Positions 4,026 through 10,641 of a stretch of DNA of 45,833 nucleotides are shown here, one piece after another; within the stretch, counting starts at the first letter, position 1; every line of letters starts with the position of its first letter. Source of the DNA: Thermodesulfobacteriota bacterium (lineage in GTDB: Bacteria; Desulfobacterota; Desulfobacteria; Desulfobacterales; JAUWMJ01). The stretch spans positions 1 through 45,833 of the forward strand of contig JAXHVO010000034.1 in assembly GCA_034189135.1 (NCBI GenBank), in the 5' to 3' direction. The notes beneath the pieces were generated by a model. It saw nothing but the letters and a program-made list of their open reading frames with translations. It was not told the origin of the DNA and did not search any database. Both the position numbers and the translations under genes were made by a program.

Positions 4026-4043
4026 TGAGTGAGCGCTCGTTCA
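4026..4043. promoter_or_regulatory. TetR-type operator, TGAGTGAGCGCTCGTTCA
   Basis: This 18-bp near-palindrome matches its own reverse complement at 14 of 18 positions. It has the TGAnTGAn-nTCAnTCA shape used by TetR-family regulators of fatty-acid and acyl-CoA catabolism, such as Gram-positive FadR. It overlaps the predicted transcription start, so a bound repressor would block initiation and an acyl-CoA ligand could relieve it. No TetR gene is in the window, so the regulator must be encoded elsewhere. Confidence 0.65.
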
Positions 4044-4067
4044 ATTATTCGATTCGCGGAGGTCACC

Positions 4068-4850
4068 ATGAATGATAGTATTCTCCTTAAGGAAGAAAAC
4101 AACCAAATTGTCACTCTTACCCTTAATCGTACTGAAGTGATGAATTCATTTAATTTTGATTTGCTTCTTGCACTAAAGGCAGAAATCGAAGATTTACAAT
4201 TTAATAAGGATGTCCGGGTCATTATCATCACCGGAGCAGGCAAAAAAGCATTTTGCTCAGGAGCGGATCTTAAAGAACGAATCACCCTTTCACCGATTCA
4301 GGTTAAAAAATATATATTTACCATACGAAACCTTTTCACCTCAATTGAACAGCTGAACAAACCGGTCATTGCGGGGATAAACGGTGTGGCGCTGGGCGGA
4401 GGAACAGAGCTGGCACTGGCTTCTGATATCCGTATCGCATCAACGAACGCTTCTATGGGACTTACCGAAGCCAGACTTGCCATCATTCCAGGCGGTGGTG
4501 GCACCCAGAGACTTCCCCGGCTTGTTGGAAAAGGAAAAGCCAAAGAGCTTATATTCACCGGTCAGAGGGTGGGAGCCAAAGAGGCGCTCAGTATCGGTCT
4601 TGTCAATAAAATTTGCGAGCCCGAGGCGCTAATGGACGAATGCAACAAAATGGCAGGCATGATATGTGAAACAGGCCCCATTGCGATCGAACAGGCAAAG
4701 TATGCGATCAATTACGGCCTTGAGACCGATCTCGGCACAGCCCTTGCCATTGAATCGAATGCCTACTGGATTTGCATACCTACTGAAGACCGTCTGGAAG
4801 GTCTTGCCGCTTTTCGTGAAAAAAGAAAGCCGGTATATAAGGGGAAATAG
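4068..4850 (+). CDS. Enoyl-CoA hydratase/isomerase, methylglutaconyl-CoA hydratase (AUH)-like
   Basis: This 260-residue crotonase hydrates an enoyl-CoA. The oxyanion-hole segments are FCSGADL (63-68) and ALGGGTE, and both catalytic acids of the family are present: Glu114 in GGGTE and Glu134 in LTEARLAIIPGGGG. The stretch around 130-150 and the C-terminus (TEDRLEGLAAFREKR) closely resemble remembered mammalian AUH, the 3-methylglutaconyl-CoA hydratase of leucine degradation. The HMG-CoA-lyase-like gene downstream fits that reading, since methylglutaconyl-CoA hydration yields HMG-CoA. ATG at 4068 was chosen because GGAGGT lies five bases upstream; a longer reading from GTG 4029 has no such site. 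A generic short-chain enoyl-CoA hydratase is the alternative. Confidence 0.85.
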   Translation: MNDSILLKEENNQIVTLTLNRTEVMNSFNFDLLLALKAEIEDLQFNKDVRVIIITGAGKKAFCSGADLKERITLSPIQVKKYIFTIRNLFTSIEQLNKPVIAGINGVALGGGTELALASDIRIASTNASMGLTEARLAIIPGGGGTQRLPRLVGKGKAKELIFTGQRVGAKEALSIGLVNKICEPEALMDECNKMAGMICETGPIAIEQAKYAINYGLETDLGTALAIESNAYWICIPTEDRLEGLAAFREKRKPVYKGK

Positions 4851-5034: not shown

Positions 5035-5117
5035 AAAGCAAAAATATTTTTAGAGTTATTTATTTAAGCCATTAAACCCGGTCCATAGGACCAGAATTCT
5101 TTACCAAGGAGGATTTT

Positions 5118-6290
5118 ATGACCGAGTATGATTATTGGAAAATATTTCCCAAAATGCCGAAGAAAGTAACCATCGGTGATATAACCATTCGTGACGGTTT
5201 TCAGCATGAAGAAAAATTCATCTCTACCGAAGCAAAAAAGTTTTATCTTGAAGAACTGATCTTTGCCGGCTGCCGCCATATTGAAGTAACCAATCTGGGA
5301 AACCCGTTTCTCATGCCACAGTTCAGGGATGCGGAGGAGTTGCTTACCCACCTGAAAGGTGATCGTTTTAAAAAACGATGTGAAAAAAAAGGTATAAATT
5401 ACGATGACATTGTGCTTACAGCCATTACCATCCGTGAAGGTGCCGTTGATCGCGCCATTGAGCTTAAGCAAAAAGGAATAGGACCAGATCGTCTCCTGAT
5501 GATGGTGTCAACCGAAGAAGAGCATCATTTTGCCAATTCCGGCACAACCCTTCCCGATTACTGGGCCGAAGCCGAACGATGCACAAAAAAATGCAACGAT
5601 GCGGGCATGAACATGTGCGGCACGGTGAGTACCATCTGGGGCAGCCCCATTGGGGGTGCCACGGACATGAAGGATGCGGTGGAATTTACCAAACGATGGC
5701 TGGAGATCGGCGCCCATGACATTGAACACGCCGACCATGACGGCAGTGCTTCGGCTGCGGAGGTTTACCGTTACTACTCCATGATTCTTGATGAAATTCC
5801 GGACCCCAGGCTTCATATCGCCCATTTCCATGAAACCAAACGCGTCGCTTCGGCATCCGTTCTGGCTGCTCTGCATGCCGGGATTATCAATTTTGAAGCC
5901 ACCCTGGGAGGTCTGGGCGGACAACCCGCTAATTTTCTGGATGACTGCCCCACCAGAGGTACCGGAGACTACTACTATGAAGACCCCAGATATGTCGGCC
6001 TGGTTACCCTGGAAGACACGCTGGTTCAAATTGATGAGATGGGCATAGAACATGGCTACGATGTGGACCGCATTTTGTGGTTAGGCAGGCAGATGGAGAA
6101 AACCATCGGCCGTAGATTACGCTCCGATGCGGTTATTAACGGCCGCACCTTAAAGGAAGGCCACATGCATTTTGCCAGACCCGGTTTGAAGAAAAGAAAG
6201 GAAAAATTGGGTGAAAAACCAGGGCAGATGCTGCCTAAAGGATGGAGTTCCAAGGCGGTCTTGCCTGAACAATACCGACCCAAAACATAA
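5118..6290 (+). CDS. HMG-CoA-lyase-like DRE-TIM metallolyase with atypical active site
   Basis: This 390-residue protein has the DRE-TIM barrel of HMG-CoA lyases and related acyltransferases. Arg25-Asp26 lies in TIRDGFQHEE, and the metal-binding histidines 236 and 238 lie in AHFHETK. Two features depart from true HMG-CoA lyase. The loop that should read GLGGCP, with the catalytic cysteine, reads GLGGQP (Gln269). The following metal-ligand segment GASGN is replaced by a longer stretch with GTGDYYYEDP. The protein is also longer than the roughly 300-residue lyases. It may cleave or condense a related acyl-CoA. A strong AAGGAGG lies five bases before the ATG. The crotonase upstream suggests acyl-CoA metabolism; the genes downstream are of unknown function. 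Confidence 0.8.
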   Translation: MTEYDYWKIFPKMPKKVTIGDITIRDGFQHEEKFISTEAKKFYLEELIFAGCRHIEVTNLGNPFLMPQFRDAEELLTHLKGDRFKKRCEKKGINYDDIVLTAITIREGAVDRAIELKQKGIGPDRLLMMVSTEEEHHFANSGTTLPDYWAEAERCTKKCNDAGMNMCGTVSTIWGSPIGGATDMKDAVEFTKRWLEIGAHDIEHADHDGSASAAEVYRYYSMILDEIPDPRLHIAHFHETKRVASASVLAALHAGIINFEATLGGLGGQPANFLDDCPTRGTGDYYYEDPRYVGLVTLEDTLVQIDEMGIEHGYDVDRILWLGRQMEKTIGRRLRSDAVINGRTLKEGHMHFARPGLKKRKEKLGEKPGQMLPKGWSSKAVLPEQYRPKT

Positions 6291-6442: not shown

Positions 6443-6497
6443 ATCCAACTGAGTTACCATCGATTCACCATTGAGATACCAACCGAGGAGTACTTTT

Positions 6498-7274
6498 ATG
6501 CCGGAAAAAGCGGATCGAGTAGAGGACCTGAGCCGGGAAGATACCGTCCATCTGGTGATGGACATGTTTCATAGAATTATTATCCACTATGCCCTGTGGT
6601 TTACCGAAGTCAGGCACCAGATGGGGATGGGCAAAGCGCTGGATACCCTGCAGATTGTATCGGAAAAAAGCATCGGCATCCAGATGAAAAGGCTATCCAA
6701 ACTCTTCGGGTTTCAAATGAAGGGCGGTATCCCAACGCCCCTTCTTGATATGCCTAAAGAATCGCTTGTTGAACTTTTGCATACTGTTTCCGTTAACTGG
6801 CTGGCCAATGACGGGGTATGGTTTCAAGCGGTAGAATTTGAAAGCGGTATGAATGATGCCAAACGTTGTAACGATTCCTGCTGGGCGCATTTCTCTCCTT
6901 TTGAAGCATGGTCCATCAAAAAATTTCTGAATCTTGCTAAAAACCCCGGACTCGAAGGGTTAAAAAAGGCCCTTGGCTTCCGTCTTTATGCCCGCATCAA
7001 TACCCAATCGATTATACCAGAAGGCCCTCACAGTTTCATTTTTCAAATGAACGAGTGTCGGGTTCAATCAGCCCGCAAACGCAAGGGGTTGGCTGATTAT
7101 CCCTGCAAGTCGGTGGGACTGGTTGAATATCCCTATTTCGCCACAGCAATTGATCCCAGGATCACCACCGAATGCATCGGATGCCCGCCGGATGAACATC
7201 CTGAAGAATGGTTCTGCGCCTGGCGATTTAAACTACAAAACTCGACAGGCGACAACTTGAAGGCTGAAACTTGA
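6498..7274 (+). CDS. DUF6125-like cytosolic protein of unknown function
   Basis: This 258-residue soluble protein has no signal peptide or membrane segment. It resembles bacterial proteins annotated as DUF6125, related to ATC-hydrolase-like families, but this is a tentative recognition. Visible features are an aromatic, His-rich N-terminal helix (MFHRIIIHYALWF), a central NDSCWAHFSPFEAW and a C-terminal TECIGCPPDEHPEEWFC with a CxxC pair that could bind metal or react. ATG at 6498 follows GAGGAG by seven bases; an upstream in-frame start at 6471 lacks such a site. A family-D repeat lies just upstream. The downstream DUF2889 gene is 78 bp away on the same strand. Confidence 0.6.
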   Translation: MPEKADRVEDLSREDTVHLVMDMFHRIIIHYALWFTEVRHQMGMGKALDTLQIVSEKSIGIQMKRLSKLFGFQMKGGIPTPLLDMPKESLVELLHTVSVNWLANDGVWFQAVEFESGMNDAKRCNDSCWAHFSPFEAWSIKKFLNLAKNPGLEGLKKALGFRLYARINTQSIIPEGPHSFIFQMNECRVQSARKRKGLADYPCKSVGLVEYPYFATAIDPRITTECIGCPPDEHPEEWFCAWRFKLQNSTGDNLKAET

Positions 7275-8056: not shown

Positions 8057-9235
8057 ATGCTGAAATTTTCCCGCAACAAACTGGTCTCTGTAATAAAAAA
8101 TAGCGTGGACACATTAAAAGTCCACGGAGTGCTTGATGATGATATCTATGGATTGGAAATAGACCTTGTTATTCGCTTAAATGACTTAAAAATTGTATCG
8201 ATCGATGGCCGCTGGAACCGGTTTACAACTCCGGAATGTCCTCGCGCCGTTGCCGTTTTACAGTCAGCGACAAAATTTTATATTAATGAAGAGCTGGCTG
8301 CCAAAGTCCACAAAATTATTGGCCGTGAAGGCTGCCGCCATTTTGCCAACCTTCTAATCGAAAGCTGCGATGCAGCCAAAGAGGCTGCAACCATTGTAAA
8401 GTGGCAGGCTGCCCAAACCGATGAACCCAGCCTGACATTGGAACAGTTTCTATCCGGCGAGAGGCAAACCGCTCTTGAACCTGCATCTGTTCGTTCCATT
8501 CAGGTGGAAGCAGAACCACTTCAAATTAGAATAGCGACCTCTAAAGAAGATTCTATCGAGACAGCAAATACTTCAGAAAAAAAATCTGCAGGGGTGTTTG
8601 TTGACCTGCACACGCATACGTCACCGGCTTCGCCCTGCAGTTCGGCTGCCACCGAACAATTGATTAAAGAGGCCAAAAACATCGGATTGGATGGTATCTG
8701 CCTGACCGACCATAACTATGTTTGGCAGAAAAAACAGGTGGAAGAGTTAAGACAAAAGCACGGTTTTCTGATTCTCAGGGGAAATGAAATTACCACCGAT
8801 CAGGGTGATATGTTGGTTTTCGGGATGTATAAAGATATACGGGGGATCATAAAGCTTGAAGATCTTAAAAAGAAAGTCCTAAACGCAGATGGTTTTATGA
8901 TCGCCGCCCATCCTTTTAGGGGCTTTCTTGTCTTTGGTGCCGGGCAGTTGGGTCTGACAGCGGAAAAAGCCAAGACGCGATCTCTTTTTCAGTTTGTGGA
9001 CGCCATTGAGGTTTTGAACGGAAAAGTGACTGAAAAAGAAAACAAATTGGCAGCCGAGGTTTCGGCTGTCCTTAAGCTGCCGGCAACAGGCGGCAGTGAC
9101 GCCCATGAGGTGGATGAGGTGGGAAAATACGCCACCCGGTTTACCGGCAGTATCAGTAATGAAAAAGAACTTCTGGCGGCTCTGAAAAACGGAGACTATA
9201 ATGCGGTGAATTTTAGAAAGGAGAATGCGAAATGA
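8057..9235 (+). CDS. DUF2889-like domain fused to a PHP metal-dependent phosphoesterase
   Basis: This 392-residue protein combines a DUF2889-like region (1-115), a linker and a PHP domain (180-388). The PHP metal ligands are all present: His185 and His187 in DLHTHT, Asp218-His219 in LTDHN, Glu244 in RGNE, His285 in AAHPF and Asp348-His350 in GGSDAH. PHP domains hydrolyse phosphate esters such as histidinol phosphate or nucleotides, so phosphoesterase activity is likely, though the substrate is unknown. GGAGAGA precedes the ATG. The stop codon overlaps the next start as ATGA, so the product is probably coupled to the DUF169-CoaE protein. Confidence 0.8.
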   Translation: MLKFSRNKLVSVIKNSVDTLKVHGVLDDDIYGLEIDLVIRLNDLKIVSIDGRWNRFTTPECPRAVAVLQSATKFYINEELAAKVHKIIGREGCRHFANLLIESCDAAKEAATIVKWQAAQTDEPSLTLEQFLSGERQTALEPASVRSIQVEAEPLQIRIATSKEDSIETANTSEKKSAGVFVDLHTHTSPASPCSSAATEQLIKEAKNIGLDGICLTDHNYVWQKKQVEELRQKHGFLILRGNEITTDQGDMLVFGMYKDIRGIIKLEDLKKKVLNADGFMIAAHPFRGFLVFGAGQLGLTAEKAKTRSLFQFVDAIEVLNGKVTEKENKLAAEVSAVLKLPATGGSDAHEVDEVGKYATRFTGSISNEKELLAALKNGDYNAVNFRKENAK

Positions 9236-10641
9236 CAGTGTCACAAGATTGGGAAAAGATAATCAGAAGAATGGAACTGTTACTGCGACTGAAAGCCTTT
9301 CCGGTTGCGTTTAAAATGCTCGAGGACAAAGAAGATCTTAATACGATACCATTTTTACGCCGATGTGATAAAAAAGTGACCCTCTGTCAGTTAATCACCC
9401 AGGTTAGATGTTTTGACTGGACAGTGGGTGCCGTGCTGGATGATTTTATCTTTCCCGGCTGTCCTTCCATCATTGGTTTAACGGACACCCCGGAAACCTA
9501 TAAAGATGGAACTTTTCGCAGTATTGTCTGGGTGGCGACCAAAGAAGACGGTAAAAAATATGAATCGTCGATTCCACGGTTACCCCTTGGCCGGTACGAG
9601 GCCGTGGCCATGGCCCCACTGGTGTATAATCCCTTTGAACCGGATATTGTGCTGATCTATGCCAATCCGGCGCAGATGATGCTGCTAATCAACGCGCTTC
9701 AATTTGAAGATTATGAAGTCATGCAGTTTTTTTGCGTGGGGGAATCTTCATGCTCTGACGCCATTGCCCGGTGCTATCTGACAAACAAACCGTCACTAAC
9801 CATACCGTGCTACGGAGAACGGCGTTACGGCAGTGCCCAGGACGAAGACATGGTGATGGCGATTCCGCCGCAAATGATGGAGAAAGCCCTCAGGGGACTG
9901 GAAGCGCTCTACCGCAGGGGAGTCCGTTATCCCATCAGTTTTGCCGGGGCGGAAGCTGATGTAGCCTCCTTATTTCCCCCCTCCTACAAAAAGGCGGATG
10001 CTTTTATGAAAAAGCTGAAGGGGGATGACAATCGTTTAATTGTGGGAATCACCGGTGGCATAGCGAGTGGAAAGAGCACGGTGTCTGACATGCTGGAAGA
10101 ACTGGGAGCTCCCCTGATAGATTTTGATCAGCTGGCCAGACAGGTGGTGGAACCCGGGACCCCCGGCCTGGCGAGTATCACGGATTATTTTGGCCGACAA
10201 GTACTCGATAAAGACGGCCGACTGGACCGAAAAAAGCTTTCAGATATTGTGTTTAAAGATTTTGAAAAGAGAAAAAAGCTGGAAAGCTTCACTCATCCAG
10301 CCATTTATGAAGCCTTTTTGCAGCAGATTGATGAGATTACCGCCAACAAACCTGATGCCATTGTTCAGGTATCCATTCCACTTCTGGTGGAGCTGAATCT
10401 CCAGTATCTGTTTGACGAGCTCATCCTGGTTTATATTTCCCCGGAAAAGCAGGTGGAACGATTGGCATTAAGAGATAAAATCAGCCAGGACGATGCGGCC
10501 AACATCCTTAAGTCACAGCTTCCCATAGATGACAAGGTCGGTTTTGCAAAATTTATCATAAATAATGAAAGCACCTTAGAAGAAACCACCAAGCAGGTGA
10601 ATGAGGTGTGGCAGGAGCTGAAAAAAATTCAAAATTCGTAG
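9232..10641 (+). CDS. coaE: DUF169 domain fused to dephospho-CoA kinase
   Basis: This 469-residue protein joins DUF169 (about 1-250) to a complete dephospho-CoA kinase (about 269-469, close to the usual 200-residue CoaE). The P-loop is GITGGIASGKST (272-283), followed by DFDQLARQVVEPGTPGL, LESFTHP and the SIPLLVE segment typical of CoaE, so the last step of CoA synthesis is very likely catalysed. The DUF169 part carries several Cys (45, 52, 60, 77, 168, 174), as in family members, whose function is unknown. The start overlaps the PHP gene stop (ATGA), with AAGGAG upstream. Whether this is the organism's only CoaE cannot be told from the window. Confidence 0.9.
   Translation: MTVSQDWEKIIRRMELLLRLKAFPVAFKMLEDKEDLNTIPFLRRCDKKVTLCQLITQVRCFDWTVGAVLDDFIFPGCPSIIGLTDTPETYKDGTFRSIVWVATKEDGKKYESSIPRLPLGRYEAVAMAPLVYNPFEPDIVLIYANPAQMMLLINALQFEDYEVMQFFCVGESSCSDAIARCYLTNKPSLTIPCYGERRYGSAQDEDMVMAIPPQMMEKALRGLEALYRRGVRYPISFAGAEADVASLFPPSYKKADAFMKKLKGDDNRLIVGITGGIASGKSTVSDMLEELGAPLIDFDQLARQVVEPGTPGLASITDYFGRQVLDKDGRLDRKKLSDIVFKDFEKRKKLESFTHPAIYEAFLQQIDEITANKPDAIVQVSIPLLVELNLQYLFDELILVYISPEKQVERLALRDKISQDDAANILKSQLPIDDKVGFAKFIINNESTLEETTKQVNEVWQELKKIQNS

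Follow-up and report, generated by a model that had tools for sequence, protein, structure and literature searches.

A conserved HMG-CoA-lyase-like clade of Desulfobacterota with glutamine in place of the catalytic cysteine and a predicted role in isovalerate breakdown

Results

The locus and its active-site residues

The window, by which we mean the whole 45,833-nucleotide stretch of DNA analyzed (a contig of a Thermodesulfobacteriota bacterium), encodes an HMG-CoA-lyase-like protein between an enoyl-CoA hydratase and a DUF6125 protein (Table 1). Elsewhere in the window, DUF169 is fused to dephospho-CoA kinase (CoaE) in a single 469-residue ORF (9232–10641), and a 546-residue ORF on the reverse strand (229–1869) combines a HAD hydrolase with an AIR-synthase-related (SelD/HypE-like) domain pair.

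The residues considered in human HMG-CoA lyase are Arg41, Asp42, Glu72, Tyr167, His233, His235, Cys266 and Asn275; the available part of a review (PMC6941031) places Cys266 among the most critical catalytic residues and also counts Glu72 as critical for catalysis. The window protein carries an RDG motif (Arg25, Asp26), an AHFHE motif (His236-Phe-His238) and the loop GLGGQP, in which CAA encodes Gln269. These motifs agree with the first-pass annotation, which had described the Arg-Asp pair and the HxH ligands as intact, the cysteine of GLGGCP as replaced by glutamine, and the next metal-ligand loop as rebuilt. In the alignment, the GGCP..GN.ATED segment of lyases with the cysteine (Cys-type) corresponds to a longer GGQPANFLDD...YVGLVTLED segment in the window protein. 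Its lid is 17 residues longer than in the aligned Cys-type lyases, and leucine replaces the Asn metal ligand. A further difference, absent from the list in that annotation, is residue 207, which is histidine here and threonine in Cys-type lyases. Glu56 aligns with human Glu72, and Thr169 with human Tyr167. The Tyr167 position is no strict marker, since threonine also occurs there in PDB 6nds and the Cys-type rows vary.

Table 1. Features of the lyase-like gene and its neighbors in the window.
Feature	Position	Strand	Basis or remark
Enoyl-CoA hydratase, conserved partner (candidate methylglutaconyl-CoA hydratase)	4029..4850	+	PF00378
Shine-Dalgarno AAGGAGG	5106..5112	+	read from sequence
GGQP-type HMG-CoA-lyase-like protein	5118..6290	+	390 aa, ATG start; ORF limits exact
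Arg25-Asp26 (human Arg41 and metal ligand Asp42)	5190..5195	+	alignment; human roles from the available part of PMC6941031
His207, proposed replacement metal ligand	5736..5738	+	164-row alignment
His236-x-His238 metal ligands (human His233, His235)	5823..5831	+	invariant in 164 rows
Gln269 replacing catalytic Cys (human Cys266)	5922..5924	+	CAA codon inside GLGGQP
Lengthened lid loop, residues 271-293, with Tyr285-287	5928..5996	+	alignment, residue counts
Leu295 replacing Asn metal ligand (human Asn275)	6000..6002	+	164-row alignment
DUF6125 protein, recurrent downstream neighbor	6471..7274	+	PF19620

Conservation and distribution of the GGQP proteins

The GGQP clade is real and conserved. 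A genome scan gave 281 relatives from 338 pattern matches, of which the best 80 (80–92% identity) were kept; the titles of these best 80 of 281 are mostly Desulfobacterales, Desulfobacteraceae or unplaced Deltaproteobacteria. Most members of the order Desulfobacterales are sulfate reducers. In each of the 83 rows compared (80 fetched loci, the window, its duplicate L005, and L004, a paralog from the window's genome) the loop has the form G[L/M/I/Q]GGQP, which rules out a sequencing error or a one-off substitution. In a 56-row alignment Gln269 is invariant, as are Arg25, Asp26, Glu56, His236 and His238, and mean column identity over the 56 sequences is 86%. Such conservation argues against a dead or barely active paralog that is retained for a role in regulation or complex assembly, a reading that the critical standing of Cys266 in the human enzyme would favor and that we regard as highly improbable.

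At E 0.001, matches occur in 146 of 192 genomes of the class to which the window's genome belongs, a count that also takes in weak hits to other lyases. At the stricter E 1e-60, which defines "Q-type" here, 136 of the 192 have one. Elsewhere in the phylum a B-type query finds matches in 132 of 395 genomes at E 1e-25, the weaker of which include Cys-type lyases. The window's genome also encodes a GGCP lyase (L087) and a second GGQP paralog (L088, 59% identity) with glutamate for the metal-ligand aspartate. The resulting REG for RDG is seen in L088 (9145–10293) and in another GGQP paralog, L120 (4375–5580), and L130 and L202 likewise have glutamate at this DRE-TIM metal-ligand position.

Residues other than cysteine and glutamine also occur at this position of the loop among relatives. 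Tryptophan (GLGGWP) is found in L203 (6150–7208) and L204 (5297–6415), which retain His207 and have lost Asp208, and histidine (GGHP) in L213 and L214, from Rhodococcus and Bosea plasmids. Plasmid-borne lyases were considered as nearest kin and rejected: all 367 tblastn records are below 60% identity, with 26–31% among the 40 matches listed. The eight plasmid regions fetched carry GGCP proteins on six and GGHP proteins on two.

Family models and fold

The window protein scores 68.3 bits on PF00682 (HMGL-like, DRE-TIM), above the cut-off of 29. The best NCBIfam family is NF004283 (HMG-CoA lyase), yet the score is 124.6 bits against a cut-off of 246; the Cys-type lyase of the same genome scores 294.8. 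This cut-off is passed by the GGQP relatives L198 (248.7) and L196 (279.6) and by the GGHP protein L213, while the D-type protein L135, in which the Asn ligand is kept, stays below it with 132.1 bits.

All relatives of solved structure found by sequence (6 distinct sequences at E 0.01) are HMG-CoA lyases. An AlphaFold2 model, built on a shallow alignment of 56 rows with 79–92% identity to the window protein, has a pLDDT of 77, falling below 50 in the lid (269–292). The best fold matches of this model are again HMG-CoA lyases (Z 31.4–33.0), other DRE-TIM enzymes reaching at most 25.6 among the matches listed. These comparisons bear on the possibility that the protein is a synthase or cleaves another C-C bond, for example by condensing an acyl-CoA with a keto acid. 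DRE-TIM relatives do include such synthases, and both the cysteine and the Asn ligand are lost. However, models of 2-isopropylmalate and homocitrate synthases give only 18.0–24.5 bits against cut-offs of at least 413, and the fold agrees with synthases at Z of about 25 versus 31–33 for HMG-CoA lyases, so we judge this possibility very unlikely. Models of 4-hydroxy-2-oxovalerate aldolase were not reached either (25.1 bits against 229, and 21.1 against 286).

The Cys-type lyases (human PDB 2cw6, Bacillus subtilis 1ydo, 6nds, 1ydn and 2ftp; NF004283) share with the window protein the TIM barrel, the Arg-Asp pair, HxH and Glu56. They are only 21–26% identical to it, whereas the window protein has the glutamine, Leu295, His207 and a long lid, and falls in a separate clade. 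Equivalents of human Arg41, Asp42, Glu72, His233 and His235 are thus found in it, and those of Tyr167, Cys266 and Asn275 are not. Since the model score, the cysteine, the Asn ligand and the position in the tree all speak against membership, we do not file the protein in the Cys-type family.

Phylogeny of GGCP and GGQP rows

A quick tree of 78 rows (77 of 101 rows plus the window; one ORF without the RDG motif, L055, was dropped) placed 30 GGCP rows together (support 88) and the window among the Q rows. A long-branch warning led to a tree of 61 rows, calculated with the loop columns excluded and made up of 59 rows of the quick tree and two PDB lyases (1ydo and 6nds). In the latter, all 24 GGCP rows, including both PDB lyases, lie on one side of a branch with support 96/92, and the window lies inside a clade of 28 rows (26 with Gln and 2 with Trp; 99/98). 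GLGGQP therefore marks a separate clade, a question that the first-pass annotation had raised, and the grouping with HMG-CoA lyases that it had named as refuting its view does not appear for Cys-type lyases in the 61-row tree.

The branching of the remaining GGQP proteins is weak. Some of them keep the Asn ligand and have a short or differently built lid. In the 61-row tree, three such proteins with the Asn ligand (L196, L201 and L202) are placed toward the Cys rows at a weakly supported split (74/39), so the tree does not establish a single change from cysteine to glutamine. The Cys rows remain together although these three moved sides.

The metal site

The metal site was compared in an alignment of 164 rows, representing 163 different sequences and including all fetched orthologs (77 of 80) but L020, L059 and L067, in which the exact string RDGFQ was not found. 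Residue 207 is histidine in all 101 rows that have leucine at position 295, and threonine or serine in all 63 rows that have asparagine there. The Leu295 rows are further marked by Glu203 (101 of 101), Asn272 (100), and Asp208, Trp174 and Tyr286 (99 each). Gain of His207 together with loss of the Asn ligand, a pairing that is new here, suggests that one metal ligand has been swapped for another. In the 61-row tree the Leu rows form a single 25-row clade (96/86), so the His207/Leu295 change appears to be one event rather than several; lying on one branch, the link between the two residues is unreplicated. The GGQP relatives L193–L202 and the GGHP proteins L213 and L214 have lost the cysteine at the same place as the window protein but, unlike it, keep the Asn ligand and Thr207. 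Nearby, position 205 is, we presume, the place of the carbamylated lysine ligand of transcarboxylase 5S and pyruvate carboxylase.

A cysteine in the lid, Cys277, was considered as a relocated catalytic residue and rejected as not general, being present in 67 of 99 Leu-type Q rows. Glu56 is kept in 99 of 99 Q rows with Leu295, and glutamine stands at this position in 33 of 46 Cys-type rows. The own-genome GGCP lyase L087 (9067–9975) is one of these 33, all of which come from genomes of the window's phylum. Given the weight of Glu72, many of the proteins counted here as Cys-type may not be textbook HMG-CoA lyases.

Genomic neighborhoods

Candidate genes of leucine/isovalerate breakdown recur beside the GGQP lyases. 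Among the 57 of 80 loci whose sequence extends 5 kb or more upstream, a hydratase lies within that distance on the same strand in 52, an acyl-CoA dehydrogenase in 38, a carboxyltransferase in 20 and all three in 13. Downstream, 52 loci are long enough for the same distance, of which 9 have an acetoacetate-CoA ligase and 15 a DUF6125 protein. The same operon slot is occupied by GGQP lyases of about 80%, about 60% (B2) or 40–43% (C) identity. Among the loci examined, the carboxyltransferase is adjacent in 7 of 9 B2, 3 of 4 C, 0 of 2 Cys-type and 0 of 3 D-type cases.

At the window locus itself, the hydratase is the only pathway gene beside the lyase, and no carboxyltransferase was found near the window lyase or its nearest relatives L007 and L008. 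The best carboxyltransferase of the window's genome (59% identical) is on another contig (C12) and a dehydrogenase candidate (73%) on a third. Two copies of the acetoacetate-CoA ligase in this genome are broken at contig ends (G000 contigs C1, C118, C137 and C108), probably because the assembly was interrupted at a duplicated gene.

Several other proteins were noted around the lyases. An HTH-cupin protein lies directly downstream in L119 (9371–10072, by Pfam), and proteins with a similar sequence start follow the lyase in L190 (8859–9494) and L191 (6969–7604). At 16 loci a protein of about 1092–1154 residues with B12-binding, MeaB GTPase and methylmalonyl-CoA-mutase domains, an IcmF-like architecture, is encoded upstream on the opposite strand (e.g. 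L008, 1472–4933). Genomes G000, G005, G002, G014, G015 and G052 each have a single biotin carboxylase domain despite a carboxyltransferase in isovalerate operons, for which a shared AccC or transcarboxylation are candidate carboxyl sources.

In two neighborhoods both lyase types occur close together. In L228 (4720–12192, contig C9 of genome G050) a carboxyltransferase, biotin carboxylase, biotin carrier and GGCP lyase are followed about 1 kb further on by a GLGGQP lyase, and in L125 (genome G001) a Cys-type and a Q-type lyase lie within 5 kb. The two types may thus divide the work, for instance by HMG-CoA isomer.

The isovalerate cluster of Desulfococcus multivorans

The genome of Desulfococcus multivorans DSM 2059 (G005) encodes an 86% identical ortholog with GLGGQP at 3,210,174–3,211,340. 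It stands in a run of genes for a TetR regulator, acyl-CoA dehydrogenase, enoyl-CoA hydratase, carboxyltransferase, the GLGGQP lyase, an HTH-cupin protein, an alpha/beta hydrolase and acetoacetate-CoA ligase. The ligase scores 943.8 on TIGR01217 (cut-off 520.9); the dehydrogenase, hydratase and carboxyltransferase do not reach NCBIfam cut-offs among the matches listed. Because the carboxyltransferase is below the cut-off of its best model (methylmalonyl-CoA decarboxylase alpha), we use "Mcc" as the name given in PMC5109826. According to the available part of that study, AcsA6, EchA2, Mcc and HmgL of the 3.20-Mbp isovalerate cluster are formed exclusively in cells adapted to 3-methylbutanoate, and by position and gene content the GLGGQP ortholog is taken to be this HmgL. 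The same part of the paper says nothing about an altered active site. HmgL resembles the window protein in identity, loop and neighboring hydratase; its cluster differs from the window locus in having the dehydrogenase, carboxyltransferase and acetoacetate-CoA ligase. Two GGCP relatives lie elsewhere in D. multivorans, at 1.305 Mb (with Gln for Glu72) and 0.124 Mb (Glu72 kept, GGCP...GN), and no reference genes were found beside them in the stretches read.

Formation specifically on isovalerate, as reported in the part of PMC5109826 available, argues against a dead paralog and, together with the tie to acetoacetate-CoA ligase, for cleavage rather than synthesis.

Co-occurrence across genomes

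Counted without regard to kinship, Q-type lyase and acetoacetate-CoA ligase occur together in 126 of the 192 genomes, Q-type alone in 10, the ligase alone in 10 and neither in 46. The association persists in the 115 genomes without a Cys-type lyase, where the ligase is found in 58 of 64 Q genomes versus 6 of 51 others, kinship again being ignored. A genome was counted as having a Cys-type lyase when the own-genome lyase, used as query, gave a match at E 1e-45; one relative in G108 (E 4.1e-40, 30%) falls below this line. By this measure both types are present in 72 of 136 Q genomes and no Cys-type lyase was found in the other 64 (36 of 87 among genomes of at least 95% completeness).

A carboxyltransferase at E 1e-120 is present in 87 genomes, of which 82 have a Q-type lyase (kinship ignored); a few of these carboxyltransferases, that of the window's genome among them, are only 43–60% identical. 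It is missing from 54 of 136 Q genomes. Five genomes have the carboxyltransferase and no Q-type lyase. In G023, G068 and G126 a Cys-type lyase is encoded on another stretch, while in G084 and G147 a Cys-type lyase was likewise not found. No lyase lies beside the hydratase and carboxyltransferase in G023 and G126, and the contig of G068 stops 222 bases beyond its carboxyltransferase.

The distribution of the two types is relevant to substrate choice. A different HMG-CoA stereoisomer or a close analogue may be the substrate; in the explicit form of this idea, the Q-type would cleave (R)-HMG-CoA or a longer 3-hydroxy-3-methylglutaryl-CoA analogue and the Cys-type would handle (S)-HMG-CoA. Proximity of both types in L228 and L125 and their joint presence in 72 Q genomes fit such a division, as does the rebuilt metal site, which would hold the 3-hydroxyl group. 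There is also a precedent: the available part of PMC6689899 describes a leucine route through (R)-HMG-CoA in Mycobacterium tuberculosis with an unrelated lyase, Rv2498c, another bacterial departure at the HMG-CoA step. However, nothing among the neighbors points to an unusual acid, and no Cys-type partner was found at E 1e-45 in 64 Q genomes, so we consider the explicit form unlikely. The same 64 genomes speak against a dead paralog.

Discussion

We predict that the window protein works as an HMG-CoA lyase in leucine/isovalerate breakdown with a rebuilt active site, and consider this probable. The isovalerate-specific HmgL of D. multivorans, the common operon slot and the tracking of acetoacetate-CoA ligase make acetyl-CoA and acetoacetate from HMG-CoA the most likely outcome. 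The first-pass annotation had leaned towards a different cleavage or condensation of an acyl-CoA; given the induced ortholog, the pathway neighbors and the ligase association, we do not favor that reading. A literature search found no activity assay, and the glutamine variant did not appear in titles or the beginnings of abstracts.

In the proposed reaction, the GGQP lyase would convert 3-hydroxy-3-methylglutaryl-CoA into acetyl-CoA and acetoacetate, which would then be activated by acetoacetate-CoA ligase. The putative active site retains the TIM barrel, Arg25, Asp26, Glu56 and the two His ligands, with Gln269 for the cysteine and Leu295 for the Asn ligand. Judging from the co-occurrence, the lost Asn ligand is probably replaced by His207, which lies where another barrel strand ends. 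The proton delivered to the acetyl-CoA enolate might come from a group other than cysteine, perhaps a lid tyrosine (285–287) or water. A lid tyrosine as the new acid is a guess; a tyrosine directly follows GGCP in some Cys-type lyases as well.

A bolder scenario can be offered tentatively, with more doubt than conviction: a large clade of Desulfobacterota HMG-CoA lyases would have dispensed with the supposedly essential cysteine and moved a metal ligand from the G-loop Asn to His207 on another strand, C-C cleavage then relying on another acid and perhaps acting on the other isomer of HMG-CoA. The GGQP relatives that keep the Asn would then be living intermediates.

Cys266 has been treated as a catalytic hallmark of HMG-CoA lyases, and a clade widespread in Desulfobacterales does without it and has a rearranged metal site. 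A probable HMG-CoA lyase with glutamine for this cysteine and an exchanged metal-binding residue implies that the accepted mechanism may be incomplete. If active, these proteins would be a natural experiment on which groups are needed for HMG-CoA cleavage, and the curated model built on Cys-type lyases would miss the isovalerate step in Desulfobacterales that carry the GGQP clade.
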